Assembly (NCBI RefSeq): GCF_035083965.1
Contig: NC_089736.1
Span: 77,001 to 141,000, forward strand
Source of the DNA: Branchiostoma lanceolatum
Lineage: Eukaryota > Chordata > Leptocardii > Amphioxiformes > Branchiostomatidae
DNA length: 64,000 bases
Direction: 5' to 3'
Translations under genes and position numbers: made by a program
The notes under the pieces: generated by a model
Told to the model about the DNA's origin: nothing
Database searches by the model: none
What the model saw: only the letters and a program-made list of their open reading frames with translations
Part shown: piece after piece, positions 1,468 to 62,700 of the stretch
How positions within the stretch are numbered: position 1 is the first letter of the stretch
How the letters are laid out: every line of letters begins with the position of its first letter

Positions 1468-1469
1468 GC

Positions 1470-1693: not shown

Positions 1694-1702
1694 GTAAGGG
1701 TG

Positions 1703-2929: not shown

Positions 2930-3389
2930 GTAAGGGACCACGAGCCTGAGGTCTGGGGAAGGAAACACTTGTTGTCGTCAATGGGGTTAAATCTCCATTT
3001 CACCCCATTGTTGTTGATAACACTTTACAGGTCTTTACACTATTGGAAACGCCTGCTGTTGTTTATAATGTGACAGTCAGGAGTCAGCTGTAGAAGAACC
3101 GGATAAGGGGTGAATGAGTGAATTATATGATGTCCTTGCTACTACCAAACCGAAGACTCGACTCTTTTTCACAACACTTTTAACTTTGTAACTTGTCAGT
3201 TTGGGGATTTAGTCCCCACTATCACCTTTTCTTTCCTTACTATCTGCATGCCTGTTTTTAGTTTGAAGGGGGGGGGGGGTGAGGCCCTAGAACAGCCAAG
3301 TTTCTCTCTGTGTGTTAGTGTCTGTCTTAGTCGTAGTGCACAAAAACACTTTCTCAAAGTTCCTGCTCCGACGGTCTCAACCCACTAAT

Positions 3390-3448
3390 TTCGGCCGCCA
3401 TTTTGATATAGTCACGTGGTGTTTGTTGGCTCTCACAGGATGACGTCA
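3390..3448 (+). promoter_or_regulatory. YY1 and CRE motifs at the start of LRIF1 exon 1
   Basis: An inverted YY1 element (GCCGCCATTTTG) lies at 3394-3405, an E-box CACGTG just after it, and a full CRE, TGACGTCA, at 3441-3448 overlaps the proposed start codon. This may be a third start site, or part of an exon entered from the acceptor CTCTCACAG ending at 3438. Confidence 0.5.
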
Positions 3449-6400
3449 AACGGTATACACGCCGACGTGGTGAGGTCAGACACTGTTACGTCAGGCGACG
3501 TGACGTCTGCAACTCCTGGTCACGTGACCACCACAACTACAACCTCGGCTCACGTGACCACCACAACTACAACCTCGGCTCACGTGACCATCACATGTAC
3601 AACCTCGGCCTTGCAAACCAGCGTTGCTGCAACCTCGGCCCACTTGACCAGCGTTGCTGTAACCTCGGCCGTGCAGACCACTACAGCTGCAACCTCGGCC
3701 GTGCAGCACAACGTCACTACAACCTCGGCCGTGCAGCACAACGTCACTACAACCTCGGCCGAACAGACCAGCGTTACTGCAACCTCGGGCGTGACCAGCG
3801 CTGCTGAAACCTCGGCAGTGACCAGCGTTGCTGCGACCTCGGCCGAACAGACCAGCGTCGCTGCAACCACGGCCGAACAGTCCAGCGTCGCTGCAACCTC
3901 GACCGAACAGTCCAGCGTTGCTGAGACCTCGGCCAAACAGACCGGCGTAGCTGAAACCTCGGCCAAACAAACCGGCGTAGCTGAAGCCTCGGCCAAACAG
4001 ACCAGCGTAGCTGAAACCTCGGCCAAACAGACCAGCGTAGCTGAAACCTCGGCCAAACAGACCGGCGTAGCTGAAACCTCGGCCAAACAGACCGGCGTTG
4101 CTGCGACCTCGGCCAAACAGACCAGCGTCGCTGCGACCTCGGCTGAGGAGACCAGCGTTGCTGTAACCTCGGCCAAACAGACCGGCGTAGCTGCGACCTC
4201 GGCCAAACAGACCGGCGTTGCTGCGACCTCGGCCAAACAGACCGGCGTAGCTGAAGCCTCGGCCAAACAGACCGGCGTAGCTGAAGCCTCGGCCAAACAG
4301 ACCGGCGTAGCTGAAACCTCGGCCAAACAGACCGGCGTAGCTGAAACCTCGGCCAAACAGACCAGCGTAGCTGCGACCTCGGCCAAACAGACCAGCGTTG
4401 CTGTAACCTCGGCCAAACAGACCGGCGTAGCTGCGACCTCGGCGGTGAAGACCAGCGTTGTGACCAGGTAAGGCCGATTCTCGGGTACAAGTAATTTGGG
4501 CCCTGTCTTTAATCTTCAAGCCGATATCAGGATACCTGCCTACACCTGGGCTCACGGAGTGATAGTATAATGCCGGTCCCTTTAGTGAATAACCCACTGG
4601 CACAGATATTAGGGTTTCGTCATGAAACGTATCCGTGTATTGTTTACGATTTTAGTAAAATACAATGTATTCCTGAATGGCTATCATGATCTCACCCATT
4701 GTTTAAAGCCATCCCGCTTGAAATGTAATACACTGTACTAGTAAATATGTAGTTTTCCGAAATGACAACATGAATAACTAGAGTTCCACGACCTCATACC
4801 TGCGCCAAGTGATTTTAACCTTTATGACTGACGTATTAGGAGTGTTTCTCATCAATTATAAATCATACCAGTTGATTGTCTTAAAATATAACATGTCCAA
4901 TTTGTCTTGAAATGTATTAAATGAAAATGAAATACAAGAATACTAGCGTTGTAGATATGAATATATACAAAAGCAAGCAACATTTACTAATGAAAGAATG
5001 AAATCGACATTATTATAAAGCATCCAAAATAATAGTCCAAATACACCCGAAGCTCCCACATAGAGAAACAAATATGAGTCTTGAAATCTATGAAATGAAA
5101 TTAAAAATGTCGATCATATCTGCAGCCCGTTGTTTGTGTTCGATGTGAGGTAAAATCTAAGACAGATTTGTAAACTCTTGGCGCCCAAAGCTTCCGTGGC
5201 TTTGCTGGATGTGGAGTTCCAACCGGTTTATTTCCATATCTTTGATCAAAAATATTAATTAAGAATTAAAGTTGGCTCCCCAAGAAATACTACAAATTCT
5301 ACCGGCTACAAACGCTCAACATCCGATGCGATGCGTTTTGCTTGTACCAGTTGCTCTCATTATGCCATCCAAAATGAGGTGCATTATCGCAGACTGTCAT
5401 TTGAGTTTGACATTCTGGTTTCACGTCGATATTCAGCTCTACATTACCCTTATATATTGCACCGAAAGGCGCGATGAATCAATCTGTTTGTATTTGTATC
5501 ACGTAGCTCTCAGAAAAATGTGTCCATGTTTTTGTTAAGATCGTTATGTGACATCGATATTTTAATTGCTGTGTAGCTGGCGGCCGTGTGATAGTTGGTG
5601 TATTCAAATGCCATTTCAGTAATGTAAGCTTTTAGTTTCACGTCAATCTCCAACTCTTCACGGCCAACAAACGGCCCCTCACAAACCACACCCACCCTTC
5701 GATTTGTAGCTCTGAGAGAAAATGAAGAAAGGTTTGTTAAGATCTCAGTTGCTTCATATAACATCATTATCTTAATAACTGTCCGTCCGGCGTCCGCATC
5801 AATGTTGGGTGTATCTAAATGTCAGCACTCATGGAAAGACAATTTCGTAAACATGCCATTGAATGAAAGTTTCTCTGAGCCGAAATATTGAAATCTAACA
5901 ACAATGTCTCTGATGATGTCATCGTCAATGGAGGGAAGCGTGTTGTTATTAGTGTTGGTGACGAAATAGAATTGAGAAACCCAAAAACACGGAGGTAAAT
6001 TAATAACGCGAAAGTGCGCGTCAGAAAAAGTGACGAATGGGTTTCAATGGTCCAGGTTTGAGTTCACTTCGCTCGTAATCTGCTTGTTGAACAGGTGTTC
6101 GAGGGAACGTTGATTCTTGGCTCAAACCTTTCTTCCGTCTTGGAAGTTACGTTTGTCTTGAAGACAAAAGACAAAAATTTTGAATAAAGTTTAAAGTTGG
6201 CCCCGCAAGCTCCGACAGAAACGCTTACTTGCTAACTTACGCTTACTCCTACTACTGTGCAGCGGGACTGCCCAACTCTCCAGACCGCCCGCTGCTAAAG
6301 GGACCGCCAGTCCACCCCCTAATGGGACCGCCCAACTATCCAGCGGGACCGCTGCTAGCGGGACTGTCCATCTGCCCAGCCCAGCCGCTGCTAACGGGAC

Positions 6401-8805
6401 CGCCCAGCTATCCAGCCAGCCCGGCGATAACGGCGGGACCCACCAGTTGTCCAGCGGGACCGCCCCGCTATCCAGCCCGGCCGCTGCTAACGGGGCGCCC
6501 GGCGGGACCCACCAGCTGTACCAGGTGGTGCCGGTGGTGCAGAACGGCGTGCCGTGCCGCCTGCTCGTGCCGCTCAACATGGTGCCGCCCCAGCCGCCCG
6601 TGGGCAAGGCGGTGAGTAACGCCTACTGTTGTATATCCTGGTCCGTTATTGTTAACTTGTTTGTTTTTGATTACGGTTTATCACTGTTGTTTGCCCAGGT
6701 GCAGCCGACAGCTACCCGTTATAGTTTACTTATTTGTTGTTGTTGTTGTTTACGGTGTATCACTGTTGTTTATCCAGGTGCAGCCGACAGGTGACCAGCC
6801 GCGCACCGCGGGACCGTCGGCTCAGCTGCCGGCCGGCAGCAGTAAGTTCCTCCTGCAGCAGGTGAAGGTGGCGCAGGCGGGGCCGGCGGCGGCCTCGGGA
6901 ACCTCGGCGGTGGTGCACGTGCTCAGTCCCGCCGGCTCCGCTGCAGCGGCCGGTGGAACCAGACCGGGGAAGGACGGGAAATTCGGGTCGGGAACAGTCA
7001 TCAGTAGTGCCGTTAGCGGCGCGGTGGGGCCCGGCGGAGTCATCATCAGCCCGGCCGGCCCGAGTGCGACCAGCACCGTGCAGAAGGTGATCGCGGTGCC
7101 GCCGACCATCGCCCCGAGCAGTAAGGTGGTTTTGCCGCCGGCCGCGCCCGTGGCGACCCCGGGGAAGGGCACCGTTATCCAGGTCCCCGCGTCGTCAGTG
7201 GCGGGTCCCTCCGCTGTCTACAACATCATCAAAGTCACCCCTCCTCCCCCGGGCGGAACATTAACGATCGGTCCCAACACGCGGCTGGTTGTGGTGTCCG
7301 GGCCGTCCACGGGCGTGACGCAGAGCCTGGGCCCTCGGACCAGCGCGGCCCTCGGCAGCGTGGCTGTGGTGACGCCCACCGTGAAACCTGCGCCCTCGGC
7401 CAAGCCCTCCATCCTGAAGACGCCGGTGTCTGCTGTGCCTGTCGGGAGGCCCATCATTGCAACGTCGGCGGGACAGCACAAAATCGTGATCGTCCCGCAA
7501 CCCACAACAGTCTCGGCCCAAACAGCAGCTAGAATCGTCCCGCAAACCATAACAGTCCCGGCCCAAACAACTGCCAGAGTCGTCCCGCAGACCAGCACAG
7601 TCCCGGCCATGGTTGTTCCCAACAAGCCCCCGGCCGCACCCAAACAGGTGTCCATGGTGCAGCAGAACGAGAACGTAGTTCTGATTAACGGGCAGCCCTA
7701 CAAGCTGGTCCCGTGCCCCACCACCACGCACATCCCCGTGGACGCGCTCAAGTCCACCGCCGCGACCGCCACGGTCTCCTCCGCGGTGGTGCAGACGGCT
7801 GCTCCCGCCAAGGTAACTATCAGCTCGCCCGGCGTCCAGGCCGCCACGGTTCCGGTCAGTTCGGCGTGCGTCCAGGCGGCGGCTCCCTCCACAGTAACGG
7901 ACAGTTCGATTCCCGTCACACGGACTCACATGACCACACCTAACAGACACAGCTCTGATGGGGGCGTGACGTCAGCCTCTGGGGGTGTGACGTCAGCCTC
8001 TGGAAGTTTGAGGACTGGAGAGACGTCCGGCTCGGAGACGGAGTCTGCGTCCGAAGCTTCTCCCGTGTCCAAGGAACGGGAGAGTAGCGAAGGGGCGGTT
8101 CTGAAGATTGACAGTGTTTACAGTCTGAAAGGTGCCTCCAAAGCCCCGGGAACTCCCCCTTGTACACCGTCGCTGAGCGCACAGACCATCTCTCGGGACA
8201 GCAGCGCATCCAACACCCTCAAAAACATCGCCACCATCCACTCTGCTGTCGTCAACACGCCCAAGAAGTACATCGTTGTTTACCCCAACAAACCGGCCGT
8301 GCCCCCCTCCCCACCGCGCGCCGTGAAACAGACTCCCGTTGCCCAGACGGTAAGTAAACTGTCGGAACCCGTGGAAACCAAACCGGGGACACCTCCCGCC
8401 TCCCCCGCCAAAGTTCCTGCAAGCAAAACGCCTCCTCGGCCGCCTACTCCTAAATCCGCCGACAGACGGCCCGCCCCTAAACCCGCGGACAGACAGCCCA
8501 GCCCCAAGTCCGTAACGGAGATGTACCACAGCTACGCGAAGGCCGAGTCGGTCGAGCCCCCCGCCCCCCAGGTGAAGCGCTCCGTCACGGCGCTGATGGT
8601 GCGCACCACGCCCCTGGGGAAGTCCACCGTGTCCATGGGGCAGGACGACGCCAACCCACCCGCCCTGCCGCCCAGCAAGATCTTCCGCCTGGAGCCGCCG
8701 CGACCCAACGAGACGATCCAGGACGAGCGCGTGCGCAGACTTAAGGAGATTCTCCGGGAGCGCGAGGCGGCCGTGGAGCAGCTCCGGAAGAGGAAGAAGA
8801 CGTGA
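3440..8805 (+). CDS. LRIF1: LRIF1-like nuclear protein (ligand-dependent nuclear receptor-interacting factor 1)
   Basis: Proposed exons are 3440-4467, 6263-6611 and 6778-8805, about 1134 residues, with phases 2 and 0 agreeing at both joins. Three LRIF1 landmarks are seen. The first is an N-terminal LYQVVPVVQNGVPCRLLVPL segment in exon 2, like the vertebrate YQVVQ block. The second is a central NENVVLINGQPYKLV block, like NALVMFNGKVYLL. The third is the C-terminal coiled coil around DERVRRLKEILREREAAVEQ, ending in a basic RKRKKT. Between these the protein is a Ser/Thr/Pro/Val-rich disordered linker. Vertebrate LRIF1 binds HP1 and SMCHD1 at heterochromatin through its C-terminal half; the same role is inferred. 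Exon 1 is joined on phase alone: AG|C gives Ser, and the repeat-rich N-terminus is otherwise unlike LRIF1. Exons 2-3 are the secure part. The protein is longer than the vertebrate form because of repeats in exons 1 and 2. Confidence 0.75.
3521..4455. repeat. 30-bp coding minisatellite (10-residue repeat) in LRIF1 exon 1
   Basis: About 30 units of a 30-bp repeat encode a 10-residue unit of the type TSAKQTGVAE. The early units are TTTTSAHVTT-like and diverged; the later ones are nearly identical. Because 30 is a multiple of three, several other frames also stay open, including a long minus-strand frame. Confidence 0.9.
4468..6262 (+). other. LRIF1 intron 1; no other gene seen
   Basis: Bounded by the donor AG|GTAAGG at 4468 and a pyrimidine-rich acceptor ending TGTGCAG at 6262. 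Inside is AT-rich sequence without recognisable exons; short open frames (5272-5538 plus, 5510-5767 minus) have no support. Confidence 0.5.
6263..6500 (+). repeat. Degenerate coding repeat in LRIF1 exon 2
   Basis: Repeats of a unit translating as roughly PAAANGTAQLSSG occur about five times before the conserved YQVV block. Third positions are GC-rich and the frame is intact. Confidence 0.7.
6640..6790 (+). repeat. 79-bp duplication spanning the LRIF1 intron 2 acceptor
   Basis: The pyrimidine tract, the acceptor and the first exon bases (CAG|GTGCAGCCGACAG) occur twice, with exon-like starts at 6699 and 6778. The second is used in the model. The first would shift the frame and reach an early stop. 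Confidence 0.85.
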
Positions 8806-10112
8806 GGAGGCGGGGGGGGGTGTACGAGGGCGTGCGCAGACTTAAGGAGACTCTCCGGGAGCGCGAGGCGGCCGTGGAGCAGCTCCGGAAGAGGAAGAAG
8901 ACGTGAGGAGGCGGGGAGGGGGGGGGGGGGTACGAGCGCGTGCGCAGACTGAAGGAGATTCTCCGGGAGCGCGAGGCGGCCGTGGAGCAGCTCCGGAAGA
9001 GGAAGAAGACGTGAGGAGGCGGGGGGGGGTGTACGAGCGCGTGCGCAGACTTAAGGAGATTCTCCGGGAGCGCGAGGCGGCCGTGGAGCAGCTCCGGAAG
9101 AGGAAGAAGACGTGAGGAGGCGGGGAGGGGGGGGGGGGGGGGGTACGAGCGCGTGCGCAGACTTAAGGAGACTCTCCGGGAGCGCGAGGCGGCCGTGGAG
9201 CAGCTCCGGAAGAGGAAGAAGACGTGAGGAGGCGGGGGGGGGGTGTACGAGGGCGTGCGCAGACTTAAGGAGACTCTCCGGGAGCGCGAGGCGGCCGTGG
9301 AGCAGCTCCGGAAGAGGAAGAAGACGTGAGGAGGCGGGGAGGGGGGGGGGGGGGGTACGAGCGCGTGCGCAGACTGAAGGAGATTCTCCGGGAGCGCGAG
9401 GCGGCCGTGGAGCAGCTCCGGAAGAGGAAGAAGACGTGAGGAGGCGGGGGGGGGTGTACGAGCGCGTGCGCAGACTTAAGGAGATTCTCCGGGAGCGCGA
9501 GGCGGCCGTGGAGCAGCTCCGGAAGAGGAAGAAGACGTGAGGAGGCGGGGAGGGGGGGGGGGGGTACGAGCGCGTGCGCAGACTTAAGGAGACTCTCCGG
9601 GAGCGCGAGGCGGCCGTGGAGCAGCTCCGGAAGAGGAAGAAGACGTGAGGAGGCGGGGGGGGGTGTACGAGGGCGTGCGCAGACTTAAGGAGACTCTCCG
9701 GGAGCGCGAGGCGGCCGTGGAGCAGCTCCGGAAGAGGAAGAAGACGTGAGGAGGCGGGGAGGGGGGGGGGGGGGGTACGAGCGCGTGCGCAGACTGAAGG
9801 AGATTCTCCGGGAGCGCGAGGCGGCCGTGGAGCAGCTCCGGAAGAGGAAGAAGACGTGAGGAGGCGGGGGGGGGGGTGTACGAGGGCGTGCGCAGACTTA
9901 AGGAGACTCTCCGGGAGCGCGAGGCGGCCGTGGAGCAGCTCCGGAAGAGGAAGAAGACGTGAGGAGGCGGGGGGGGGGGTGTACGAGGGCGTGCGCAGAC
10001 TTAAGGAGACTCTCCGGGAGCGCGAGGCGGCCGTGGAGCAGCTCCGGAAGAGGAAGAAGACGTGAGGAGGTGGGAAGGGGGCGGGGGGGGGGGCGGGTGT
10101 ACGAGCGCGTCC
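8723..10112 (+). repeat. Tandem array of the LRIF1 terminal coiled-coil segment (about 13 units)
   Basis: Units start near 8723, 8824, 8931, 9032, 9144, 9246, 9356, 9457, 9565, 9666, 9776, 9879 and 9982, with a partial unit at 10100. Each has about 75 bp of LRIF1 C-terminal coding sequence with its TGA stop, then a G-run spacer of 8-20 G. Unit types recur with a higher-order period of about 420 bp (8824, 9246, 9666). The first unit is the real exon end; the rest lie after the stop codon and would be 3' UTR or flank. Confidence 0.92.
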
Positions 10113-23700: not shown

Positions 23701-26700
23701 TTCCTCCTCTAAAGACTTACCATGTAGTATATTGTACAGTAAAGAGTTACCGTGTACCATGTACCATGTACAGTACCATGTACAGTACCATGTACCATGT
23801 ACCATGTACAGTACCATATACAGTACCATGTACCATGTACCATGTACAGTACCATGTACAGTACCATGTACCATGTACAGTACCATGCACAGTACCATGT
23901 ACAGTACCATGTACAGTACCATGTACCATGTACCATGTACAGTACCATGTACAGTACCATGTACCATGTACCATGTACAGTACCATGTACCATGTACAGT
24001 ACCAGTGTTGTCATGCTCCTCTAGCAAACCCAGTGTGACATGTATTGCCCTGGTGCATGCTGGGTGTGTTACATAGCCCTGGTGCATGCTGGGTATGTAT
24101 AGCTCCAGGAGAAGTCTGGACGTTTGTCCAATTGTTCTGGTTAATTGATTGATAAATAGATAGATGGATTGATTGATTAATTGCTAGATGGATGGATTGA
24201 TTGATTGATTGATATATTGCTTGCTTGTCTCCTGCCCAGAACACGAGCTGGCGCACGTGGAGCGCGCGGGGAAAGGCGGAACGTACCCCAGAAGATCCAC
24301 CATCATGACAAACCCGCACCACGATTATAGCGACGGTGAGTCTCCTTTTACCTCCCCAACTGAAGTCAGGTACCCATTTTTACACCTGGGGGTAATGAGA
24401 AAAGTTGTGTTGAGTGCTTTCCCCAGGGCACAACATCAGTGGCACGTCAGAAGATTCCAACCCAGGACTCCTGTACAATGCCACATGACTAACTGACTTG
24501 TCATTAACCAGTCACCTCACCTCGGCCGCTTCACAACTACCGGGATGACGAGCATTTGGCTTGTCTCACAAACATCCTGCCCCAGAACCTGTATAAAAGT
24601 GTTCTCTCTGCCCCAGAACCTGTATAACAGTGTTCTCTCTGCCCCAAAACCTGTATAACGGCGTGTTTGTGTTCCGCAGGGCGTAAAACATTCCCCAGAA
24701 CGAGAAGACCGCAGCCCAGCCCGACCTTGAGAAGACCGGTGGGCACGTTCAGCCCGAGGTCGGGCAGCGAGCGTTCCCTTAGCAACAGCAGCAGCAGCAG
24801 CGGGCTGGTCACGGACTCCGAGAGACGAGACTCCGACTACGACCTTGCCGTGCTGAGCCTACAGGACCTCAACCCGGCGAGGTGTAAGTCATGTAAGTTT
24901 TGCGCCCGCGACGCGCGCTGCAAACCTCACACCGTAACCATGGAAACCATGCAAGTCTTGTAACATGTAATGTGATGTCTCTCCCTCAGGAGACACAAGT
25001 GTGCCACAAGGATTATTGAAGTTTACCTTCCGTAGGCTGACTCAGTAGGGGAAATAAGTTTGTACTTTTCAGTTTGACTCTCTGATGGTAGTGGTCTGTC
25101 AGTAAAGTTTTTTTTCTGTATGATGAGTGTTGTGTAATGTCTGTTAGTAAAGACTCCCTAGGCCAATTTCACCTGCATCATGAGTGTCTGTAAGTCTTTG
25201 AATCTATAATCAATGATGTCTGTCAGTAGAGACCCCCTAGGTTATCTCCGCTGTGCATGATGAGTGTTGTTTATATTGCAGTAGTAAGGAGGGTTGATGG
25301 TAAGTCTGTCAGTAGAGACCCCCAAGGTTATCCCGGCTGTGTGTGATGAGTGTCGTTTTGTTACAGTAGTGGGGAGGGTTGATGGTAAGTCTGTCAGTAG
25401 AGACCCCCAAGGTTATCCCGGCTGTGTGTGATGAGTGTCGTTTTGTCGCAGTAGTGGGGAGGGTGATGGTAAGTCTGTCAGTAGTGACCCCCTAGTAGAA
25501 AACCCCCTAGGTTATCCCAGCTGTGTGTGTGATAAGTGTTGTTTTGTCGCAGTAGTGGGGAGGGTTGATGGTAAGTCTGTCAGTAGAGACCCCCTAGGCC
25601 GTGTGTGATGAGTGTTGTTTATATTGCAGTAGCGGCAAGGGATGCCGCCACAGTAGCTCTGATCAATGCGTACCAGAGAAAGCCGTGGATGTTGCTGGTA
25701 GCAAACCGAGGATCCGCCACATGTAGGAATTTCCCGTTGTGTTACTTTTGGTGGGAGAATGGGACTAACTACAGGTGATGGGAAAGGGTGAGGGGTCATG
25801 GACCAGCAGGGTGAAAGGTCGTAGCTATGGCGACTGCTCCTGTCATGTACTAACCCAACACCTTCCTTCCCAGTAGATGAGAGGACACAGCTGTGGTTGC
25901 TATGGGAATAGCCATGGTTGCTATGGGAACAGCTATGGTTGTCAAGGCAACAATAGTGTCAGAAATGTGAGTGCTGAGCCTATAGCAGGTCCGTAACTTT
26001 TTTCCTGTTTTTTTGCAGCGCCGCGAGCGCCGACGAACTGGCGTCAGGGCAAGCTGCTGGGGCAGGGCGCCTTCGGGCAGGTCTACCTCTGCTACGACGC
26101 CGACACCGGCCGCGAACTCGCGCTCAAGCAGGTCCACCTGGACCCCAAGAACGTCGAGGCCTCCAAGGTCAGTCCACACTCACTCACTCACTCACTTACT
26201 CACTCACACCGCTCAAGCAGGTCCACCTGGACCCCAAGAACGTCGAGGCCTCCAAGGTCACTCCACACTCACACAAAGCTGTTCTTTGTGTTTACAGCTG
26301 AAAGTAAAAGTTGTTTGTGTTTACAGCTGAAAGTAAAAGTTGTTTGTGTTTACAGCTGAAAGTAAAAGTTGTTTGTGTTTGCAGCAGGAAGTGAAAGTTG
26401 TTGTTGTTGTGTTTGCAGCAGGAAGTGAAAGTTGTTGTTTGTGTTTACAGCAGGAAGTGAAAGTTGTTGTTGTTTGTGTTTGCAGCAGGAAGTGAAAGTT
26501 GTTGTTTGTGTTTACAGCAGGAAGTGAAAGCTCTGGAGTGTGAGATCCAGCTGCTGAAGAACCTGCAGCACGAGAGGATAGTTCAGTACTACGGCTGCAT
26601 CCAGGACGAGAACAGGCTCTGCATCTTCATGGAGTACATGCCGGGGGTGAGTTATACACACACACACACGCACACACACGCTCACGCACACACACACACA

Positions 26701-29700
26701 TACACGCACTCACGCACACACACGCATACACGCACTCACACACAGAGAACAGGCTCTGCATCTTCATGGAGTACATGCCGGGGGTGAGTTATACACACAC
26801 ACACATACACGCTCACATACACGCTCACATACACGCACTCACGCACACGCACACAGAACAGGCTCTGCATCTTCATGGAGTACATGCCGGGGGTGAGTTA
26901 TACACACACACACACGCACACACACGCTCACGCACACACACACACATACACGCACTCACGCACACACGCTCACATACACACACACAGAGAACAGGCTCTG
27001 CATCTTCATGGAGTACATGCCGGGGGTGAGTTATACACACACTCACATACACTCACTCACGCACACACACTCACTCACATACACGCACTCACACACACGC
27101 ACACAGAACAGGCTCTGCATCTTCATGGAGTACATGCCGGGGGTGAGTTATACACACACACACATACACATACACGCACTCACTCACTCACGCACACACA
27201 CTCACGCACATACACGCACTCACTCACTCACATACACGCACTCACATACACACACACAGAGAACAGGCTCTGCATCTTCATGGAGTACATGCCGGGGGTG
27301 AGTTACACACACACACACGTGCACACACATACACGCACTCACACTCACACACAGAGAACAGGCTCTGCATCTTCATGGAGTACATGCCGGGGGTGAGTTA
27401 TACACACACACATACACGCACTCACTCACGCACTCACACACACTCACGCACACGCACGCACTCACTCACGCACTCACTCACTCAAGCACACACACTCACA
27501 CACGGAGAACAGGCTCTGCATCTTCATGGAGTACATGCCGGGGGTGAGTTATACACACACTCACATACACGCACTCACGCACACACACACGCTCACATAC
27601 ACGCACTCACGCACACACACACGCTCACATACACGCACTCACGCACACACACAGAGAACAGGCTCTGCATCTTCATGGAGTACATGCCGGGGGTGAGTCA
27701 CTAGCACACGTGCACACACACAAGTACATGCGGGGGGTGAGTCACTAGCACACGTGCACACACACAAGTACATGCCGGGGGTGAGTCACTAGCACACGTA
27801 CACACACACAAGTACATGCCAGGGTGAGTCACTAGCACACGTACACACACACAAGTACATGCCAGGGTGAGTCACTAGCACACGTACACACACACAAGTA
27901 CATGCCAGGGTGAGTCACTAGCACACGTACACACACACAAGTACATGCCTGGGTGAGTCACTAGCACACGTACACACACACAAGTACATGCCGGGGGTGA
28001 GTCACTAGCACACGTACACACACACAAGTACATGCCTGGGTGAGTCACTAGCACACGTACACACACACAAGTACATGCCAGGGTGAGTCCACCTGTACAC
28101 ACAAGTACATGCCTGGGTGAGTACAGAGCCTTCAGGGATGTCTCCACTTGTAAACATCCAGCTTCAATCTCTAACCCTGTAGGAGTTGTGTCGACATGTT
28201 CAATGTTTGTTTGTTCACATGCTTATTGTTTTTTCGTTTGTTTGTTCATTTGTTGCAGGGTTCCGTTAAGGACCAGATTCGGCAGTACGGCGCTCTTACG
28301 GAGAACGTCACACGGAAATACACGCGGCAGATTCTGGAGGGAATTCTCTATCTGCATAGCAACATGATCGTCCACAGGGATATCAAAGGTAAGCATGATA
28401 TCTGCATAGCAACGTGATATCTGCATAGCAACATGATCGTCCACAGGGATATCAAAGGTAAGTATGATATCTACATAGCAACGTGATATCTGCATAGCAA
28501 CGTGATCGTCCACAGGGATATCAAAGGTAAGCATGATATCTGCATGGCAACATGATATCTGCATAGCAACATGATCGTCCACAGGGATATCAAAGGTAAG
28601 CATGATATCTGCATAGCAACATGATATCTGCATAGCAACATGATCGTCCACAGGGATATGAAAGGTAAACATGATATCTGCATAGCAACATGATATCTGC
28701 ATAGCAACATGATCGTCCACAGGGATATCAAAGGTAAACATGATATCTGCATAGCAACGTGATATCTGCATGGCAACATGATCGTCCACAGGGATATCAA
28801 AGGTAAACATGATATCTGCATAGCAACGTGATATCTGCTTGGCAAGATGAATTCACACATAGACCCACCCATGGACACAACCATACGAAGCCCCGGACCC
28901 ATGTGACCAAACCCATGAACCCACCCAGGTGAACCCACCCAGGTGGACCCACCCATGTGAACCCACCCAGGTGGACCCACCCCTGACATGTCCCTCCTCG
29001 TCCCCAGGTGCAAATATATTGAGGGACTCCTCAGGAAACGTGAAGCTGGGGGATTTCGGGGCCTCGAAGCGGATCCAGACGATCTGCAGCGCCACCGGAA
29101 TGCGCACGGTCACCGGGACGCCATATTGGATGAGCCCAGAGGTCATCAATGGGGAAGGTTACGGCAGAAAAGCTGATATATGGTAAGTCTTCAGGTGTTA
29201 TATGTAAGTCTTCAGGAGTCTTGGCATGTAGGATGTAGTTAAGGTGTTTATTAATTGCTGACTGGTCGGTACTTGTAGCATTCTTATTTTGAAGTGGGCC
29301 GGCTGCCATAAACTATCACTTCATGTGCTTGGCAGGATTGTTGTTAACCCGATATTTTACCTGCCATATGTTCCTGGAGTATAGGTTGTACAGTTGTCAG
29401 GTTGTACAGTTGTCAGGTTGTACAGTTGTCAGGTTGTACAGTTATGTTGATAACCCGGGATATTTCGACTATGTTGTAAGGTTGTATGGCTGTGTTGTTA
29501 ACCCGGGATATTTCTGCCATTCCAGGTCTATAGGTTGCACAGTTGCCAGGTTGCACAGCTAACCTGATATTTCCGTGTTGTTCCAGGTCTATAGGTTGTA
29601 CAGTTAGTAACCTGCTATGTGTCTGCCCTTCCAGGTCTATAGGTTGTACAGTTGTTAACCTGCTATGTTTCTGCCCTTCCAGGTCTATAGGTTGTACAGT

Positions 29701-30306
29701 TGTGTTGTTAACGTGATGTCTCCCTGTATTTCCAGGTCTATAGGTTGTACAGTTGCCAGGTTGCACAGCTAACCTGATATTTCCGTGTTGTTCCAGGTTT
29801 ATAGGTTGTACAGTTGTGTTGTTAACGTGATGTCTCCCTGTATTTCCAGGTCTATAGGTTGTACAGTTGCCAGGTTGCACAGCTAACCTGATATTTCCGT
29901 GTTGTTCCAGGTTTATAGGTTGTACAGTTGTGTTGTTAACGTGATGTCTCCCTGTATTTCCAGGTCTATAGGTTGTACAGTTGCCAGGTTGCACAGCTAA
30001 CCTGATATTTCCGTGTTGTTCCAGGTTTATAGGTTGTACAGTTGTGTTGTTAACATTATGTCTCCCTGTATTTCCAGGTCTATAGGTTGTACAGTTGTGG
30101 AGATGCTGACAGAGAAGCCCCCGTGGTTCGACTACGAGCCCATGGCAGCCATTTTCAAGATCGCCACGCAGCCCACCATTCCCAAGCTGCCGGCCGGCGT
30201 CTCCGACTGCGCACACGACTTTCTCAGGATCATCTTCCAGAAAGACCACAGACAGAGGGCTTCGGCCCAAGAACTCTTAGAGCACTCCTTTGTCTTCAAC
30301 TACTGA
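17375..30306 (+). CDS. MAP3K2/3: MAP3K2/3 (MEKK2/3) serine/threonine kinase
   Basis: Coding exons: 17375-17378, 17757-17898, 18185-18284, 18549-18725, 18931-18951, 19471-19791, 20292-20477, 20963-21030, 21451-21527, 24240-24335, 24680-24883, 26019-26167, 26521-26646, 28259-28388, 29008-29182 and 30078-30306. All phases agree and the sum is 2205 nt, about 734 residues. An N-terminal PB1 domain runs from about residue 38 to 125 ([13 protein letters not shown] onward). The linker keeps [21 protein letters not shown] and GRKTFPR blocks typical of MEKK2/3. The kinase domain begins near residue 470 with [13 protein letters not shown] and the lysine in ALKQV, then HRDIKGANIL, DFGASK and GTPYWMSPE, and ends at TGA. 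Vertebrate homologues phosphorylate MKK5 and other MAP2Ks, binding MKK5 through PB1. Oddities: an extra acidic exon (19471-19791) with DTSSVKE repeats, a 21-nt microexon, and tandem arrays at about ten splice junctions, listed separately. Confidence 0.96.
18365..18580 (+). repeat. Acceptor-junction array before MAP3K2/3 exon 4
   Basis: Three upstream diverged copies of the unit (TTTAACCTCTAACCCATGAC, TTGCAG, then exon start ATTTCCATTCCGATCCTG) precede the real acceptor at 18548. Exon-like starts are near 18372, 18430 and 18485. A single downstream copy of exon 4 sequence (CCTGGGTCGCC...GGGACCGCCCC) lies at about 18765-18800. Confidence 0.8.
20439..20880 (+). repeat. 39-bp donor-junction array after MAP3K2/3 exon 7, frame kept open
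   Basis: Eleven units of exon end plus donor, exact 39-bp period. Donor positions are 20478 + 39n. Eight keep GAG|GTAAGA (20478, 20556, 20634, 20673, 20712, 20751, 20790, 20829). Three have G-to-A changes giving GAGATAAG (20517, 20595, 20868). Read through, each unit encodes 13 residues of the form [13 protein letters not shown] without a stop. Confidence 0.95.
21025..21240 (+). repeat. About 40-bp donor-junction array after MAP3K2/3 exon 8
   Basis: Six copies of GACTAAG|GTACGG followed by a G-rich stretch. One copy is GACTAAGGCACGG (donor lost). Confidence 0.9.
21650..22815. repeat. 32-38-bp intronic minisatellite, about 35 units
   Basis: The unit GTACAGAACTGATGTTGTAA plus CTCTGTGTGAAG, with variable GT dinucleotides, fills intron 9. 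It is not at a junction, though each unit holds a donor-like GAAG|GTACAG. The long minus-strand frame through it is a repeat artefact. Confidence 0.93.
23740..24003. repeat. GTACCAT/GTACAGTACCAT short tandem repeat
   Basis: About 260 bp of CATGTACCATGTACAGTAC permutations in intron 9, dense in GTAC and CATG palindromes and able to fold on itself. Confidence 0.9.
24130..24225. repeat. GATT/GATG tetranucleotide microsatellite
   Basis: Imperfect GATT, GATA and GATG tetramers shortly before MAP3K2/3 exon 10. Confidence 0.85.
24558..24665. repeat. 30-bp repeat, 3 units, before MAP3K2/3 exon 11
   Basis: The unit CTGCCCCAGAACCTGTATAA plus CAGTGTTCTCT occurs three times. Each contains a CCCCAG|A acceptor-like site about 30-100 bp ahead of the real acceptor at 24679. 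Confidence 0.75.
25110..25660 (+). repeat. About 85-bp intronic array with a reiterated 17-18-nt microexon candidate
   Basis: Units of about 85-100 bp each contain an acceptor (TTGCAG, TACAG or CGCAG), the segment TAGTGGGGAGGGTTGATG, and a consensus donor GTAAGT. Candidate microexons are 25282-25299, 25367-25384, 25452-25468 (17 nt, frame-breaking) and 25553-25570. An acceptor alone recurs at 25629. In phase 1, as required between exons 11 and 12, an 18-nt copy would insert LVGRVD and leave the rest of the frame unchanged. Confidence 0.75.
25630..25774 (+). other. Open segment after the last microexon-array acceptor
   Basis: From TTGCAG at 25629 the phase-1 frame stays open for about 48 codons ([18 protein letters not shown] onward), up to a TACAG|GTGATG donor. 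Its length (145 nt) would shift the frame of exon 12, so it is not a simple cassette. Confidence 0.2.
25894..25951. promoter_or_regulatory. Cluster of RFX X-box-like motifs in a MAP3K2/3 intron
   Basis: GGTTGCTATGGGAATAGCC, GGTTGCTATGGGAAC and GGTTGTCAAGGCAAC follow one another. All resemble the RFX X-box GTTGCCATGGCAAC. Function is not shown. Confidence 0.4.
26112..26272 (+). repeat. Duplication of the MAP3K2/3 exon 12 donor junction
   Basis: The last 47 bp of exon 12 plus donor (GCCTCCAAG|GTCAGT) recur at about 26209-26272 with GTCACT as the second donor, separated by an ACTC microsatellite. Confidence 0.85.
26285..26525 (+). repeat. Acceptor-junction array before MAP3K2/3 exon 13, 8 acceptors
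   Basis: Units of 29-35 bp contain TTTGTGTTTACAG or TTTGCAGCAG followed by exon-like GAAGTGAAAG. The last is the real junction. The five 3'-most carry a CAGCAG tandem acceptor; use of the second AG (exon start 26521) matches the vertebrate SKEV junction. Confidence 0.9.
26608..27692 (+). repeat. Donor-junction array after MAP3K2/3 exon 13, 9 units
   Basis: About 39 bp of exon end (GAACAGGCTCTGCATCTTCA through ATGCCGGGG) plus GTGAGT and a CA-rich spacer recur. Donors are at 26647, 26784, 26893, 27026, 27143, 27298, 27393, 27544 and 27693. Exon copies are essentially identical; the spacers vary from about 55 to 115 bp. Confidence 0.94.
27693..28125 (+). repeat. 42-44-bp secondary donor array in intron 13
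   Basis: About ten units of GTGAGTCACTAGCACACGTA, a CA run and AAGTACATGCC(G/A)GG continue the previous array with a shortened exon piece (15 bp) and a GTGAGT donor in each. Confidence 0.92.
28345..28850 (+). repeat. 69-bp donor-junction array after MAP3K2/3 exon 14, 7 donors
   Basis: Donors at 28389, 28458, 28527, 28596, 28665, 28734 and 28803 are exactly 69 bp apart. Each unit carries the exon end encoding MIVHRDIK and the donor AAAG|GTAAGC/T or GTAAAC. A stop codon lies just inside each intronic part. Confidence 0.95.
28860..28990. repeat. About 15-bp minisatellite before MAP3K2/3 exon 15
   Basis: Repeats of GACCCACCCAGGTGAACCCA lie immediately upstream of the acceptor at 29007. Confidence 0.8.
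29375..30095 (+). repeat. Acceptor-junction array before MAP3K2/3 exon 16, 11 acceptors
   Basis: Exon-like starts (CCAG|GTCTATAGGTTGTACAG) occur at 29526, 29587, 29635, 29683, 29736, 29797, 29850, 29911, 29964, 30025 and 30078, the last being real. Alternating spacings of 61 and 53 bp give a higher-order 114-bp unit. Confidence 0.94.
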
Positions 30307-51764: not shown

Positions 51765-51832
51765 ATATGGCGGAAGGCGGAAGTAAAGTGTTCCAAGTTT
51801 GCGGACATTTTGGGGAAGATTCGTGACAAAAG
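51765..51832 (+). promoter_or_regulatory. Promoter and first non-coding exon of the death-domain/GT gene
   Basis: A YY1-like CAATATGGCGG (51766-51776) and ETS core GGAAGT stand just before a leader ending ACAAAA|GTAAGC after 51832. The second exon starts at 52443 after TGTCTGTTTCAG. Confidence 0.55.
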
Positions 51833-52453
51833 TAAGCAAACATGACGGTCTGTGGACTGTTCAGTATTTTCTGATTAGTCAGGAATGTTTTCTTTGTGGG
51901 TAACTTTCTGTTGTAAAACTACAACTCGAAAACAAAGTGAGTGACGTTCAACTTGATAAAAGCTAACGGTCCTTGCACTCAAGAACAAACTTCACAACTT
52001 TTCTTAAATAGCAGTTGATATGAGTCGGTTGTCTGTTGGCTCTTTAGATTATGTACCAAGCTTTTGGCATTCACATTTCACTGAACAATTATAGGAACAC
52101 CAAACTATCACAGCGCAAGTGGCAAGTATTATAAAAGACTCAAGAATAAATTGTTTTTTTATAATGACAATGACAAAGAACTTTATTGTATATTCATGGG
52201 CTAAATGCATTAGGTAACATAAAGTAAAAGAAAATGAACATTGTATTATATTCCATCTAAATCTACAGAGTCTCTTCTCTCTTCTTGAAACATTTGTACA
52301 CATAATATTGTGTATTTTCCGTGGGAGGGGGCATTCGAAGGCAGTTTGTGGTATTCAAAGGCTCTTTCGGTGAGAACAGCTATGCCTGTGTTAGGGTAAT
52401 GTTGCTGTCCCCACACATCTAACACCCACCTGTCTGTTTCAGGTGTTGTAACC

Positions 52454-52490
52454 ATGGAGACCTGACACCTGTATGAGTCATCATGGCTGA
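52454..52490 (+). promoter_or_regulatory. Two minimal upstream open frames in the leader
   Basis: ATG GAG ACC TGA at 52454-52465 is a three-codon uORF. A six-triplet uORF (ATG AGT ... TGA) at 52473-52490 overlaps the main ATG at 52483 out of frame. Both could dampen translation. Confidence 0.5.
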
Positions 52491-55400
52491 CGACCAATGG
52501 GCAGGTCTCACAGGTAAAATTGAATTGTGAAGTTACTCAGTATATTGATAACATCATAGTCATACGCCAAATGACACTTACTCAAGCAACTGGATAAAAG
52601 TTTGAAGGTTTTAGCCACTTGCTTGGGTAACTGTCATTTGGCATATCTAATTACACACATGTCTAACATTCAACGATGTAACATTTCAACTATTCACTCA
52701 CTTACTCACTCACTCATGACCCATGACTATTCATATGTACTTTATTGACATTTCTCTAGATACACCTCAAACCTCCAGCAGTCCGAAGAAAAGGAAGAAC
52801 AAGGAGGATCAGCTTACAGTGAAGAGAAAAACTCATCTTATGGAGGGATTTCCAATGGAAGGTAAGAATCATTCTTAAACCAGTCTTCATATATAAATTA
52901 ATGATCTCTGAAAAGTACCTTCCATTCTATACAACAAGCCTCTCTTGGTATCATAATGCATTTTTGAAAACTTATTGCATTCGAACAAGTTTTAGCTCTG
53001 AATTAGATGTAATCAGTGTCTTTCTTCATGTTACTTTCCAGGAGTTCGTAAGTACTTCATTTTCATCAAGAAAAGAGTCAGCTCAGATTGGAGGGACCTG
53101 GCCTTCTGTCTTGGGTTCGAGCGAGGAGACATAAGAAACATTGCTGGCAGAAACCAAGATGACAAGTCTCGCTGTATGGACCTGTTGGAGGAATGGCTGG
53201 AGCGTAACGGAGAGAGAGCCACCATAGAGGTCCTGATGGAGGCTCTGACGGACATAGAGCTAAAGAGTACTGTGGATGGACTGAAGAAAAGATATCCAGG
53301 TAAGAATGAATGAATATAAGAAGGGGATTGTTTTGTCTTATCTAGATGTATTGCCCTGTTTCAGACTGGGTAAGAAAGTTTATCTCAGTTTTATTTGCTG
53401 TTGTTGTTTGTCTCCCTGATGTTGTTGTTACAGTTGCTCTAATTTTGATGTTTTTGCATGAAAAAATTCTCTGCACAAGGAAATAATCTTAAAACTGCAA
53501 GCCAAACTATCATTTACTCTTGCTCTTAGAGTCATCAGCTGGTAGATAGACTAAACAAGCTACCTTATGTTTGGCCTTATGATGCAAACTTCAGTAGACA
53601 ACAAAAGGTACAGAGTCAGTGATAAAGAATTGAGAAACTCACTATGGAAGTGAAACCAACTTAGATGTTTTTGAAATAAGTTAAAGATGTGTATTAAAAT
53701 TTTGGTCTGTTGAACATCTTGGTTCAGCTGCATTCATACGTCTTTTCCCCCCTTTTGCATCCACCTCCAGAACTGTCACTGTGCTGTTCAGATGCAGTCC
53801 TTCCTGTGAAACTGCACACAGAAGCCATGGTGCGCAGTCTGAGCAAGGAGGTAACCAGGCTAACAGAGCAGAAGGGGACAGCAGAGAAAATCCTCGGAGA
53901 ACATAAGCTGGAAATCCAGCAGCTCCAAGAGGCCAACAAGAGCATGGCGGCTACAATAGAGGAACTGATGGATGCTAAACACACAGCAAAGGGTCAGGGT
54001 CAGGGTTATGGGACAGAGGGAGGCCCAAGTGAGGAGAAACACTCTACGCCTGGAAAGAGGAAGAGACTGTCTGAACCAGAAGACAAACCAAAAGCTACCA
54101 AAGGTGACGAAATAGGTGTGTCTTGTGCAACTTTGTCATATATAGGTATAGCTTGTAAATATGAAGTTCACTACTAAGTGCTAGATTTGACTTACATAAA
54201 CAGGGGAAACTGTCTTATTTTGTCATGACACCAATGCATACACCCATTCCTATTTTGTGATATTAAGTTTTATGAAATGAATACATTCAAACAATCCGTG
54301 AATAGTTTTATCAGGTTGGTAAGTCACTGAATAAAAAGACTCTGTTTACACAACCAAGAGATTTATCCCACCAACTCCATTGCCTTGAAGAAGGTGACAA
54401 ATGGTCACCGAAATCTCTTCGTTGTGTAAAAAGAGTCTTTTTATTCACATTCGAACAATGTTTAAATTATGTTTTTATCTACCTTTAGGTTTAATTTGTT
54501 ACAGGTTTACATTATTGGCCAAAGGCAGGAGGATGGTAGACTAACCATACCACAAAAATTAAAATACAACAAATATCTGTATAAGTATTCAGCATTAGAA
54601 TACTGTTACGTGGTGAAGAACATTTTTTGATACTTAGCTTCCCATTACTCTGTACCTTGTAAGTTAAAGGACTGAACAATATTTTTCTTTTTAATCTCGG
54701 GAATCTTTTGTAGAAGTCAAATCTAAAGTAGTGGGTAACTTGCTCACTATTACAAAGGGTTATCCCAGCTGACAAAGGCAATACAATAACATGTGTTTCC
54801 AACAAAAAGATCAAGCAATGTTTCCTTGTTTCAACTGTTTTCAGGACCTGGGGCTGAGCCTGTGGTGCTGCTGCTCAACGACGAGTATGGCACTTCAAAG
54901 GGCGGCGTCTCCACCATCCACTGCCAGATGACGGGCCTGCTGGCCTCCAAAGGAGCAGAGGTCTACAGCACAGTACTGGAAGCCACGCAACAGGACAAGG
55001 ACGATGCGGAGGCTGATGGGGTTCAGCTCGTCTTTCCTACAATCTCCGAGCGTGACAAGAGAAAGCCCTGCCTTGATTGGCTGACCTTTGACCACAAGAC
55101 TCGTTATCCAAACCTTCCTCTGGTAGACTTCATCGTCGGCCACGTGCCCATCACAAGCCATGCAGCAAGACAGATCAAGGAGCAACGGTTTCCTGACGCC
55201 AAACTCGTCCAAGTCACTCACGTGATGCCAGAAGACACCAGCCACTACAAGAGCGATGCGAGGGTGATGAGCATCGGGGAGGAGAACCACAACATTCTGG
55301 ATGACCTGCGACATGCTGATGTGATCTTCTCGGTTGGCCCATTGATGTATGACTACTACAAGATGCAGACAAGGCAGCTAAAACCTCATTACGAGTTTCT

Positions 55401-56025
55401 GCCTAAGCCATCCGACATTTTCAGAGAGACTGAAGTGACCTACGTCGACACTAAAACGAAGACAGTGCTGACCGTAGGTAGGGTCCAGGGCGTGGAGAGG
55501 CTGAAAGGCTACGATCTGTCCGCGACTGCCATGGGCGAGGTGATCGACCATCTCCCGCACGCAAAGTGGCGAGGCCGCGGTGTCAGCGCTGAAGATTTCC
55601 CGGAGAGCAAGGCAATTATCGAGGCCAACGTGAAGAAGGGTAAATTCCACTTCACTCCCCTGAAGTACGGCACACAGAGAGAGCTAAGCGAAGACATGCA
55701 ACAGGCCAGCGTCGTCCTGATGCCGTCTCGTGCAGAGCCATTCGGACTGGTCGGTCTGGAGGCTATCGCTGCAGGGGTGCCAGTCCTGGTCTCCCACAAG
55801 TCTGGTCTTGCGATGTTCTTGCGCAAAGATTTCGAGCGTCCAATCGTGGAGATCGAAGACGACGATGAAGAGGCCGCCAAAACACTGGCCAAGCGCATCA
55901 TCGATGTACTAAAGAATGGGGAGAAGGAGTTTGAGGCTGCAAGAAAGCTGAAGAAGAGGTTGTTGGCCTCCAAGTACTGGGATGCATCGCACAGCAAGTT
56001 CCTTGAAATATTTGACCTCAAGTGA
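52483..56025 (+). CDS. Death domain-coiled coil-family 4 glycosyltransferase fusion protein
   Basis: Five coding exons, 52483-52513, 52760-52861, 53042-53299, 53771-54115 and 54845-56025, all join in phase 1 and give 638 residues. A basic linker (SPKKRKNKED) is followed by a death domain at about residues 45-130, with the hallmark WRDLAFCLGF, DIRNIAG and LLEEWLERNG...AT segments. Residues about 140-200 are coiled coil (VRSLSKEVTRLTEQKG onward), then a charged linker. Residues 246-638 form a GT-B glycosyltransferase: an N-terminal KGGVSTIHCQMTGLLASKG nucleotide-fold start, VGRVQGVERLKGYD, and the E-x7-E motif EPFGLVGLE (E543, E551) typical of family GT4. No signal peptide or membrane segment is seen, so it should be cytosolic. 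The sugar donor and target are unknown; death-domain-driven clustering of an enzyme is inferred. The single large GT exon contrasts with the split N-terminus and suggests the enzyme part was captured as a unit. Confidence 0.88.
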
Positions 56026-56081
56026 ATTTAAACGTAAAGTTGTTTGTTCATCACCACTGTTTCCTTACCTGGTCAACGCTG

Positions 56082-56242
56082 TAGCAGCCGCCAAAACGTT
56101 GACTGATCGCGTCATCGACATACTGAAGGATGGACACCAGGAGATTCAGGCTGCGCAGAGTTTGAAGAAGAAACTCCTGGACTCAAACTACTGGGCTGCA
56201 TCACACACCAAGTTCCTCGAAACCTTTGGTCTGAAAGGCTAA
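56082..56242 (+). pseudogene. Duplicated C-terminal fragment of the glycosyltransferase
   Basis: Starting 57 bp after the stop codon, a segment encodes AAAKTLTDRVIDILKDGHQE...KKKLLDSNYWAASHTKFLETFGLKG and a stop. It matches the last about 50 residues of the upstream gene (EAAKTLAKRIIDVLKNGEKE...) at roughly two-thirds identity, with its frame intact. A weak acceptor GTAGCAG ends at 56087. It is either a relic of a tandem paralogue or an unused alternative last exon. Confidence 0.8.
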
Positions 56243-59787: not shown

Positions 59788-62700
59788 TCAGTAGACCCAG
59801 GTAACAGGGACCCACTGCGGCTCGGTGCTGAGCCCGTCGACCGCGGACTGGAGCTTGTCGTAGCAGACGTCAAGGTTGTCGTTGGTGATCTGAAGGTCAA
59901 AGAAGTGGCCGTACGCCCGCTCCAGACGTGCCGACTCCTCCACCGTCCTCTTCAGGTCATTGTCCTGGGGGCAAAGGGCAGGGGTCAGTATGGGTCATTG
60001 ACATGGTCAGTAGAGGTCAGTCACCACACACATGTCCATCCACACACCCAGGTCATACTCATAGCTGTGCAACTGGCCAGAATAACCCACGCACTTGTCA
60101 GGGTCGGGTGTTACAAAGTACTGTATATGCTCTCTTTATACACATATGTTGTATGTCAATCCTGGGAGACCTTGTTAGATTGTCCCAATACATCCACACA
60201 CCCAGGTAATAGCTGTGCAACTGGACAAAACACAGACACAGAAACTTCCACAAACACAGCTGTCTGTAGTCAGCAGCACACCAACAAACATGCTGTAACC
60301 ACAGCTGTCTGTAGTCAGCAGCACACACCAGCAAACATGCTGTAACCACAGAATGCAATGCTGTACAAGTCGTGTCAACAACAAATAATGCAGCATCACT
60401 CTGCGTCTGTCAACAGTCATGTTAGGATCTGCAAGAATTAAGAGTGGTTATCAAATCTTGACATTCTCATGCCAAGTACCCTTGGAGAGGGGAGGGGTGC
60501 TAGCACCAGGGGTGGGGGTACTAGCACCAGGGGGGGGGGGGGGGGGGTACTAGCACCAGGGGGGGGGGGATGCTAGCACCATGGGTGGGGGGTTAACACT
60601 CCTGGGGTGTGTAAGTTGAGTCATAAAATGCGGACATGCCGTCGTGTTTACCAGTTCCCATTCCTGCACCTTCCTGCCCAAACCTGTCTGGTAGTGCTGA
60701 ACGAACAACAAACAAATAAATAAAATAAAAACAGACAGTAAAATAAACTAAAAACATGGATAACTGCATAGAAAGGAAACCATCAGGGGAACCAAACCTT
60801 TTATTTCGTCTTCCTTCTTAATATACATCATGTTTTATTATGGACAATTCTTCCCTAAATCTAAGTTTATTACAATGACTGTAATTCACAACTCAACATA
60901 AAATTACCTAAAAGTAAAACACATACAAAATCACATCAGCTTAGTTGTTTACATGCACGTATCAGTAGAAATGTTAACAAGAGAGTGAGACTAAAGTGGT
61001 TGAGACTGTAAGGTGGACAGTTGACATTGTTATATAAACTGAAAGGTGCATAGTAGACAGTCATGTTGTGTAAGACTGAAACCTTGTCCCTGTAGGTTTC
61101 TCGTGGCGTCTGCGGTCCGGCAAGTTCCTCCTAATTAAGGAGCAGGAAGAGGAGAAAGAAAAGTACAGAAATACCGTAATAAGATAGAAAAGAAGACTCT
61201 GAGAATAAATCAAAGCTCCCTGTACAGACCCTAAGAAATCTTAACTCCAAAAGGAAAGAGAAAATGAAGCACAAAACACGAAGCCATGCAGGACACCCTG
61301 CAGTAATTCTAACCTACAGACAGGGGAGCTGTGATAATGTCCTCTGGATGAAACTTCATCTTAAACGCACATTTTTATGCTCCCTAGTGATTTGATTTGA
61401 TATAGACTTATTTGTCAGGATATAGAAATATGCTGGGTCATTTTCCATTTTCTTTAAAGTCAGAATTTACACTGCAGAGACATGAGAAATGGGTTCTCTC
61501 CAAGCAGAGGAGTGGGTCCGGCTGGTGTTCGTTGTGTTTTTAGGCGTTTTTGTCGGGCTTTTTATTTTGTCCTGTTTTTGATATGTGTGGGTTGGCTACA
61601 TTTAGAAAACGGGACAAAATAGAAAGCCTGACAAAAACGCCTAGAAACATAACAAAAACCAGCCACATGTACAACCCACTGCTCTGCTTGGAGTGTAGGA
61701 AATGGGTCCGGGTTTCCTTCCACGTTTCACGAGTCTAAAATCCTGATGACATCACAACGTACCAGAGGGATGGGCTCGGCTCGGGTCTCGGTAGCCGTGG
61801 TAACCGCCTGTTCCATTCAGGGGAGGGGGGTTCAGGGGGGGTCGATAATGGAGGGGGCAACATTGGAGGGTGGGGGGGAGATGCACAAAATACGATCTGT
61901 TGAAATGAACATCACCAAATGGAAATTAGCAAATCAAAATCAAGAAGAAGAAACCACAAATGTACTGTTAAAGCCAACAGCAGAAAACAAGGTGAGTTTT
62001 TGTGAGATTTCCCAGATTCATACCTTAATCTTACGGTGCTTCTGCAGACGGGGGGCGAGACGACATGATGTTAATGAAGCATGAAAGTGAAGAGCAGAAA
62101 ACAGCAGCGAGAGAAGGGCAGAAAGCAGAGCAGAAATCAAGCTTGGCGGAAAAGGAGATTTAGCCTGGCATCCAAACCCATTACAGCTCCCAAGTCGCCT
62201 CTCCACAAATACGACTTGCGGAGGGGAGACTCGTAACCGGTCTATTTGCGGAGAGGAGAGTCAGGAACTATAATAGGTTTAGCTAAAGAAGATTATGATA
62301 AAAAACAGCCATACAGCTAGAAATACAACTTGCTTATCTGGTCTTTTTAAATGAATGATCAATCAATAGTGATATTGATATAATCAATATTGATAATGAT
62401 ATAATCGATAATGATATTGATAACATCGATATTGATCTATTGATGACTAAACCTACGTCTCCAGCAGTCTCCAGTTGGGGCTGGTTGGAGTCCTGGTGCA
62501 CCATGGGTAACAGGGCATGATGGGTAATGGGCATGATGGTACAAAGGGAAGCAGGAAATTATGGGAATGGACAAAAGACAGGGAAAATGTTGACATTGGT
62601 CAGCAAGGTCATGTGGGATTACAAGAAATATAACAAGAACAGCAATGAGTGGAATAATTGTGTTGTGAAGTGCAAAAGGTGATGATTGGTAAGGAAAGCG

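Follow-up and report, generated by a model that had tools for sequence, protein, structure and literature searches.

The window analysed here, a stretch of 64,000 nucleotides of Branchiostoma lanceolatum DNA, holds a five-exon gene model at 52483-56025 that closes with a TGA stop codon at 56023-56025 and is predicted to encode, once spliced, a protein of 638 residues. This protein combines a Death domain with a complete glycosyltransferase (GT) of the GT4-conflict family; the coordinates of the exons, motifs and neighbouring features are collected in Table 1.

Table 1. Features of the Death-glycosyltransferase gene and its neighbourhood in the window
Feature	Position	Strand	Remarks
LRIF1-like C-terminus	6616-8802		
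MAP3K2-like kinase, open frame	30001-30303		One flank; E 5e-24
Exon 1	52483-52513	+	Start codon ATG, residues 1-10; GT donor, phase 1
Exon 2	52760-52861	+	Basic tail with PKKRK; GT..AG, phase 1-1
PKKRK motif	52783-52797	+	Residue 19
Exon 3	53042-53299	+	Death domain; GT..AG
Death PF00531 match	about 53077-53286	+	Residues 57-126
Exon 4	53771-54115	+	Probable short coiled coil and basic linker with GKRKR
GKRKR motif	54052-54066	+	Residue 225
Exon 5	54845-56025	+	Complete GT-B glycosyltransferase, GT4-conflict family, and stop codon
Donor-site R and K	55480-55506	+	GT R212 and K220; invariant, 29/29 rows of alignment A2
E-x7-E motif	55735-55761	+	Invariant, 29/29 rows of A2
Remnant of second GT4-conflict copy	56087-56236	+	tblastn 64% identity, E 4e-15
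MAGUK p55-like gene	59788-59994	-	Other flank; E 1.5e-11 to MPP5

The initial annotation had described a single gene with consistent phase-1 splicing, and at the level of sequence this model is confirmed, with GT..AG borders on its five exons and all four junctions in phase 1. Phase 1 is found at both ends of exons 2, 3 and 4, and such symmetric 1-1 exons are the classic form of shuffled modules. The GC content of the exons is 43-58%, as against 31-36% in the introns. The exact donor of exon 4 is uncertain because 9 of the 15 GT sites listed at 53990-54180 are phase-compatible; the domain order is unaffected by this uncertainty. By eye, the stretches 51767-51831 and 52441-52513 point to a possible 5' UTR exon: its donor, GTAAGC, is at 51832, and the last base of an acceptor-like TTTCAG is 52442, such that an exon border may lie just upstream of exon 1. 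Ahead of the start codon of the gene there are two short ATG frames. Self-complementary inverted repeats were also seen in intron 1 (52562-52646, 82%) and intron 4 (54328-54447, 74%), both possibly small hairpin mobile elements.

The join between exons 4 and 5 carries the fusion, and it could be an error of the model: exons 1-4 would then form a short Death protein ending in intron 4, with exon 5 part of another transcript or decaying. The donor of exon 4 (TAG/GTGTGT) agrees with the consensus at 6 of 9 bases, other donors of compatible phase are present, an AATAAA lies in intron 4 at 54330, a decayed GT copy sits just downstream, and the intact copy is changed at 8 of 44 conserved columns. 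However, reading through from exon 4 meets a stop near 54177, whereas exon 5 is one open stretch of 392 full codons that keeps E-x7-E, R212 and K220. Only one of the six AGs listed between 54780 and 54900 is in frame, and it is the acceptor AG of exon 5 (54843-54844). The frame of exon 5 opens at 54790, and its earliest in-frame ATG, at 54928, corresponds to GT residue 28, past the conserved GG loop (residues 19-20); because this ATG lies behind the loop, an unspliced enzyme would lack its first strand, and it would be difficult for exon 5 to stand alone. The initial annotation had named exon 5 standing as a separate gene, together with an exon 3 that fails to match Death, as one finding that would speak against a fusion. 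Exon 5 lacks a start codon that it could use alone, and we hold a mis-joined model to be highly improbable.

Exon 3 had been read as a death domain, and the profile searches bear this out, with Pfam Death (PF00531) matched at E 1.1e-14 by the exon alone and at E 3.5e-13 in the whole protein (54.8 bits over positions 14-83 of 86, cut-off 22.6). The Death exon also matched the bacterial Death-like model bDLD3 under its cut-off (E 0.006), and no PADLOC model matched it. A single-sequence structure model of the domain was all-helical and of low confidence (pLDDT 58); its six best fold matches were Death-domain entries, yet with E values of only 0.36-1.3, and no PDB fold match of this model was found at E <=0.001. 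Among the matches of the Death fold, one PDB title was an NleB-FADD death domain complex. Elsewhere in the 638-residue protein, Pfam gave no match at E up to 1 to TRADD-N, of which a divergent copy in the linker is possible, nor to NACHT or NB-ARC, and no match to LRR. The coiled coil that had been placed in exon 4 (about residues 139-199) stands as plausible with moderate, borderline sequence support, as 120 of 2000 shuffled versions of a 65-residue stretch scored as high in the heptad test, and a DUF7201 coiled-coil match in the exon was weak and below cut-off.

Two NLS-like basic motifs that the initial annotation had not noted, the monopartite PKKRK at residue 19 in exon 2, a putative nuclear signal, and GKRKR at residue 225, allow the protein to be read as a nuclear regulator instead of an immune effector, carried to the nucleus by these motifs and docking on nuclear proteins through a THOC1-like Death domain. 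The best PDB sequence match of exon 3 is indeed THOC1 (THO complex subunit 1, E 1.5e-4), and no separate membrane segment is suggested because the three most hydrophobic 19-residue windows all fall within the GT core. However, likeness within the Death family is weak at such a level, with ankyrin (E 8.7e-4), NRADD (E 2e-3) and CRADD death domains matched alongside; basic motifs are frequent by chance, and a nuclear location is compatible with an immune role. A nuclear regulator is an improbable reading of the gene.

The C-terminal half was identified by a full-length match to Pfam GT4-conflict (PF20706) at residues 254-627 (E 8.8e-76, 257.8 bits, positions 1-381 of 385), and its structure model was a confident GT4 fold of the GT-B class (pLDDT 88), in keeping with the complete GT-B enzyme in a single exon that had been proposed. 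The more general label of family-4 glycosyltransferase holds for the fold and is too broad for the family: Glycos_transf_1 reached 58 bits (E 5.4e-15), and a generic metabolic GT4 was rejected because GT4-conflict outscores this profile by about 200 bits. The 26-bit gathering cut-off of PF20706 is unspecific, being passed by 14 of 14 control genomes, and one Prevotella record scored 18.5-55.6 bits over six matches; membership is therefore taken from the high score of the window GT, at 258 bits beside 316-461 bits for the 20 bacterial proteins scanned, and not from passing the cut-off. The generic metabolic GT4 was rejected also because the NCBIfam equivalogs BshA and MshA gave only 44 and 41 bits, far below their cut-offs of 274 and 463. 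No Rfam match was found within the window at gathering scores.

Both glutamates of E-x7-E, reported as intact by the initial annotation, are kept at protein residues 543 and 551 (55735-55737 and 55759-55761; GT residues E297 and E305), and R212 and K220 are kept as well, presumably for donor-phosphate binding as in the GT4 family. Alignment A2, in which these residues are invariant, has 29 rows, 28 of them bacterial. Of its strongly conserved columns, the window GT keeps 36/44 and changes eight (W14Y, N25H, R26C, L28M, G104S, G187K, G298P and W347L), among which W14, R26, L28, G104 and G187 are found in 28/28 bacterial rows. Therefore, the substrate may differ, or the activity may be lower or lost.

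A remnant of a second copy, also not noted in the initial annotation, begins 61 bases after the stop codon and matches GT residues 343-392. Over these 50 codons, dN/dS between the remnant and the GT was about 0.18 (NG86), 0.24 (LWL85) or 0.47 (YN00), with 14, 8 and 20 differences at the first, second and third codon positions. The greater change at silent than at replacement sites hints at selection on the copy prior to its decay and at membership of the gene in a tandem family. An SseK_NleB match below cut-off (E 0.029) was confined to a downstream ORF at 55952-56239. The phase-1 spliced exons, together with metazoan-type neighbours (LRIF1-like, MAP3K2-like and MAGUK p55-like, the last with Pfam Guanylate_kin under cut-off), led us to reject bacterial contamination of the assembly.

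The window is also rich in minisatellites, which together with its gene content are suggestive of a cephalochordate. At 8723-10081, the 3' end of the LRIF1-like frame recurs many times in a tandem array (periods 101 and 209 bases), and arrays at 26609-28089 and 28349-28850 consist of MAP3K-like kinase exon pieces with donor-like borders (partly by eye). ARAGORN predicts a minus-strand tRNA of unknown type at 23887-23981, inside a tandem repeat; this call is probably an artefact.

Bacterial relatives of the enzyme were collected by a genome-contig scan with a four-row alignment, and the best 80 loci of 113 relatives were kept. The nine best (L013-L021), from seven actinobacteria and two myxobacteria, cover nearly the whole GT at 28-32% identity. 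Host proteins were scanned for 20 of the 80 loci (L013-L031 and L033; 27-32% identity); all 20 matched GT4-conflict, and half of them carried a named partner domain above cut-off: CATRA in L016, L018 and L025, AAA in L026 and L033, TIR and NB-ARC in L028, HTH, NB-ARC and TPR in L013, VMAP-M0, NB-ARC and TPR in L017, and TPR in L015 and L022 (in the latter with no single stretch significant). The other ten had no named partner or sub-threshold ones only. In one of them, L014 from Actinocrispum, the GT is preceded by EAD1 (23.1 bits, cut-off 24.2) and by a YukD-like domain (24.0, cut-off 27); this protein is, on these profile matches, the closest bacterial parallel to an adaptor-GT protein even though its partner domains lie under their cut-offs. 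L019 matched the PADLOC Aga_Helical-REase models (E 9e-25), and among eight bacterial proteins searched with PADLOC, four (L014, L016, L023 and the GT protein of L002) had no match. On a Sinorhizobium plasmid, a SIR2 gene adjoins the GT4 gene, with a best PADLOC E of 2e-81 and an NCBIfam SIR2_antiphage score of 96 bits, under the cut-off of 500.

In a tree of 53 rows, 52 of them bacterial, the window GT fell with the GT4-conflict rows and was separated from the other GT4 rows by a 100/100 branch, with group labels that are partly circular because they were taken from a profile containing the window sequence. Of the 80 loci, 53 were entered (L040 was skipped as it has no open frame) and 27 were excluded manually, most of them being short or partial matches. 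The end branch of the window GT is 2.56 and its place among the bacterial subgroups is not settled by the tree, which also carries two warnings, one of a meeting of long branches (L080 with the 31-row side) and one of an unusual letter make-up in the window row. L041, labelled as other GT4, fell on the GT4-conflict side. Its Nocardia aurantia open frame (336-6233, 1966 residues) has a Zeta-toxin domain before the GT4 region. A GT4-conflict reading frame on a Hymenobacter plasmid (L001, 3001-5124) has one internal TAG and continues, in the same frame, into a long unnamed C-terminal part.

Among viral contigs, a scan with the single GT sequence matched 29 stretches, none encoding a relative, with query peptides that were not conserved ones, whereas a scan with alignment A3 returned eight loci, of which only L093 and L094 cover most of the GT. 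L093 (4001-5194) is a relative over GT residues 7-388 (28% identity, E 6e-31), and its contig may represent a prophage or a mobile island. When 60 bases were compared with phages by megablast, no match was returned, an uninformative outcome.

The company of the bacterial enzymes and the fold of the window GT also bear on a different mode of action, in which the Death-clustered enzyme would consume nucleotide sugars or tag a cytosolic metabolite and so starve the invader or the cell, with no protein target. BshA, MshA and sucrose-phosphate synthase, enzymes with small-molecule acceptors, are among the nearest solved folds, and bacterial relatives sit with TIR and SIR2, which deplete NAD in other defence systems. 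PglA, WaaG, PimA and TarM, with glycan or lipid acceptors, match the fold as well, however, and because GT4 folds are common to such enzymes, the acceptor is not decided by the fold. Action on a small molecule is, in our judgement, a possible though unlikely account.

The enzyme family and the logic of its use as an effector are already described in outline by Kaur et al. in 2021 (PMC8195603), where, in the available text, cephalochordates, hemichordates and cnidarians have GT4 joined to TRADD-N, with LRRs, and the GT4 paralogues of the coral Acropora number more than 500. The same text finds animal GT4s closest to bacterial conflict GT4s and proposes their transfer into animal immunity. Kinship of the window GT to bacterial enzymes is supported by the tree, at the 100/100 branch and subject to its long-branch warning, but the possible capture from a microbe that the initial annotation suggested was not new. 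The metazoan GT4 effectors of that study resemble the window gene, as far as the available text shows, in the full-length enzyme of the same family, in the animal host and in an adaptor domain of apoptosis or immunity; they differ in that GT4 precedes TRADD-N and LRRs, whereas here Death precedes the GT. Coral proteins joining NACHT or NB-ARC to a glycosyl transferase group 1 domain (PMC4083563, PMC5013795 and PMC13133943, each seen in part) likewise pair an immune switch or adaptor module with the enzyme in an animal, in contrast to the window protein with its lack of a NACHT or NB-ARC match.

A fusion of Death with GT4 is not named in the available text of PMC8195603, whose Figure 6A may show one, or in the accessible parts of the related literature, and the less familiar element is the directly fused Death domain, in the place that TRADD-N or NACHT takes in the published text. 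The word start 'glycosyl' is absent from a 2008 study of domain shuffling in amphioxus (PMC2575513), and in the available part of the 2025 amphioxus pangenome (PMC12373286) Death is the most over-represented domain in dispensable genes. The bacterial EAD1-YukD-like-GT4 (L014), CATRA-GT4, NB-ARC-GT4 and TIR-GT4 proteins share the GT family and a recruitment, switch or sensing module, with 28-32% identity to the window GT in L013, L014, L016-L018, L025 and L028, but the GT is paired there with EAD1 (just under cut-off), CATRA, TIR or a STAND NTPase and not with an animal Death domain. The initial annotation compared the pairing with standard vertebrate proteins; for an invertebrate chordate, such a comparison misses the closest known cases, which are the GT4-TRADD-N and coral NACHT-GT proteins.

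Glycosyltransferases and Death domains also meet in the NleB/SseK arginine-GlcNAc transferases of enteric bacteria, which sugar-tag host Death domains. This link is shared with the window gene, whereas NleB and SseK belong to a fold class other than that of the window GT and are bacterial enzymes not fused to a Death domain. By analogy, the Death domain could deliver the enzyme to other Death-fold proteins that are themselves the substrates, with sugar tags switching signalling complexes on or off, possibly in the nucleus. We consider this quite unlikely; if true, host sugar-tagging of Death-domain complexes would mirror the tagging of host Death domains by enteric bacterial effectors.

Combined, the results incline us towards reading the gene as an innate-immune effector, a glycosyltransferase recruited through the Death fold that would modify a pathogen or host target. 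Following a danger signal, the Death domain would be recruited into, or self-assemble with, Death-fold signalling complexes, and crowding or docking would bring the C-terminal GT4-conflict enzyme and its target together, whereupon the enzyme would use a nucleotide sugar, probably UDP-linked, for the modification. The enzyme itself would be related to bacterial counter-invader effectors and domesticated, its union with the Death domain having come about through shuffling of exons at phase-1 introns. Against this effector reading stand the eight changed columns of the GT, the ten bacterial proteins with no named partner above cut-off, the low confidence of the Death model with the borderline coiled coil, and the PADLOC search, in which no model matched the window GT.

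Bacterial EADs and animal Death domains have been proposed to do the same job through homotypic contacts (PMC8195603 and PMC7159879, in their available text), and because adaptor and enzyme share one protein here, this proposed equivalence is open to experiment. With no large sensor, and with E-x7-E and the donor-site residues kept, the gene links a defence effector of bacterial type directly to the Death-fold adaptors of animals, in a compact form that lends itself to testing. If the enzyme is active, animals would use glycosylation as a Death-domain-gated effector step.
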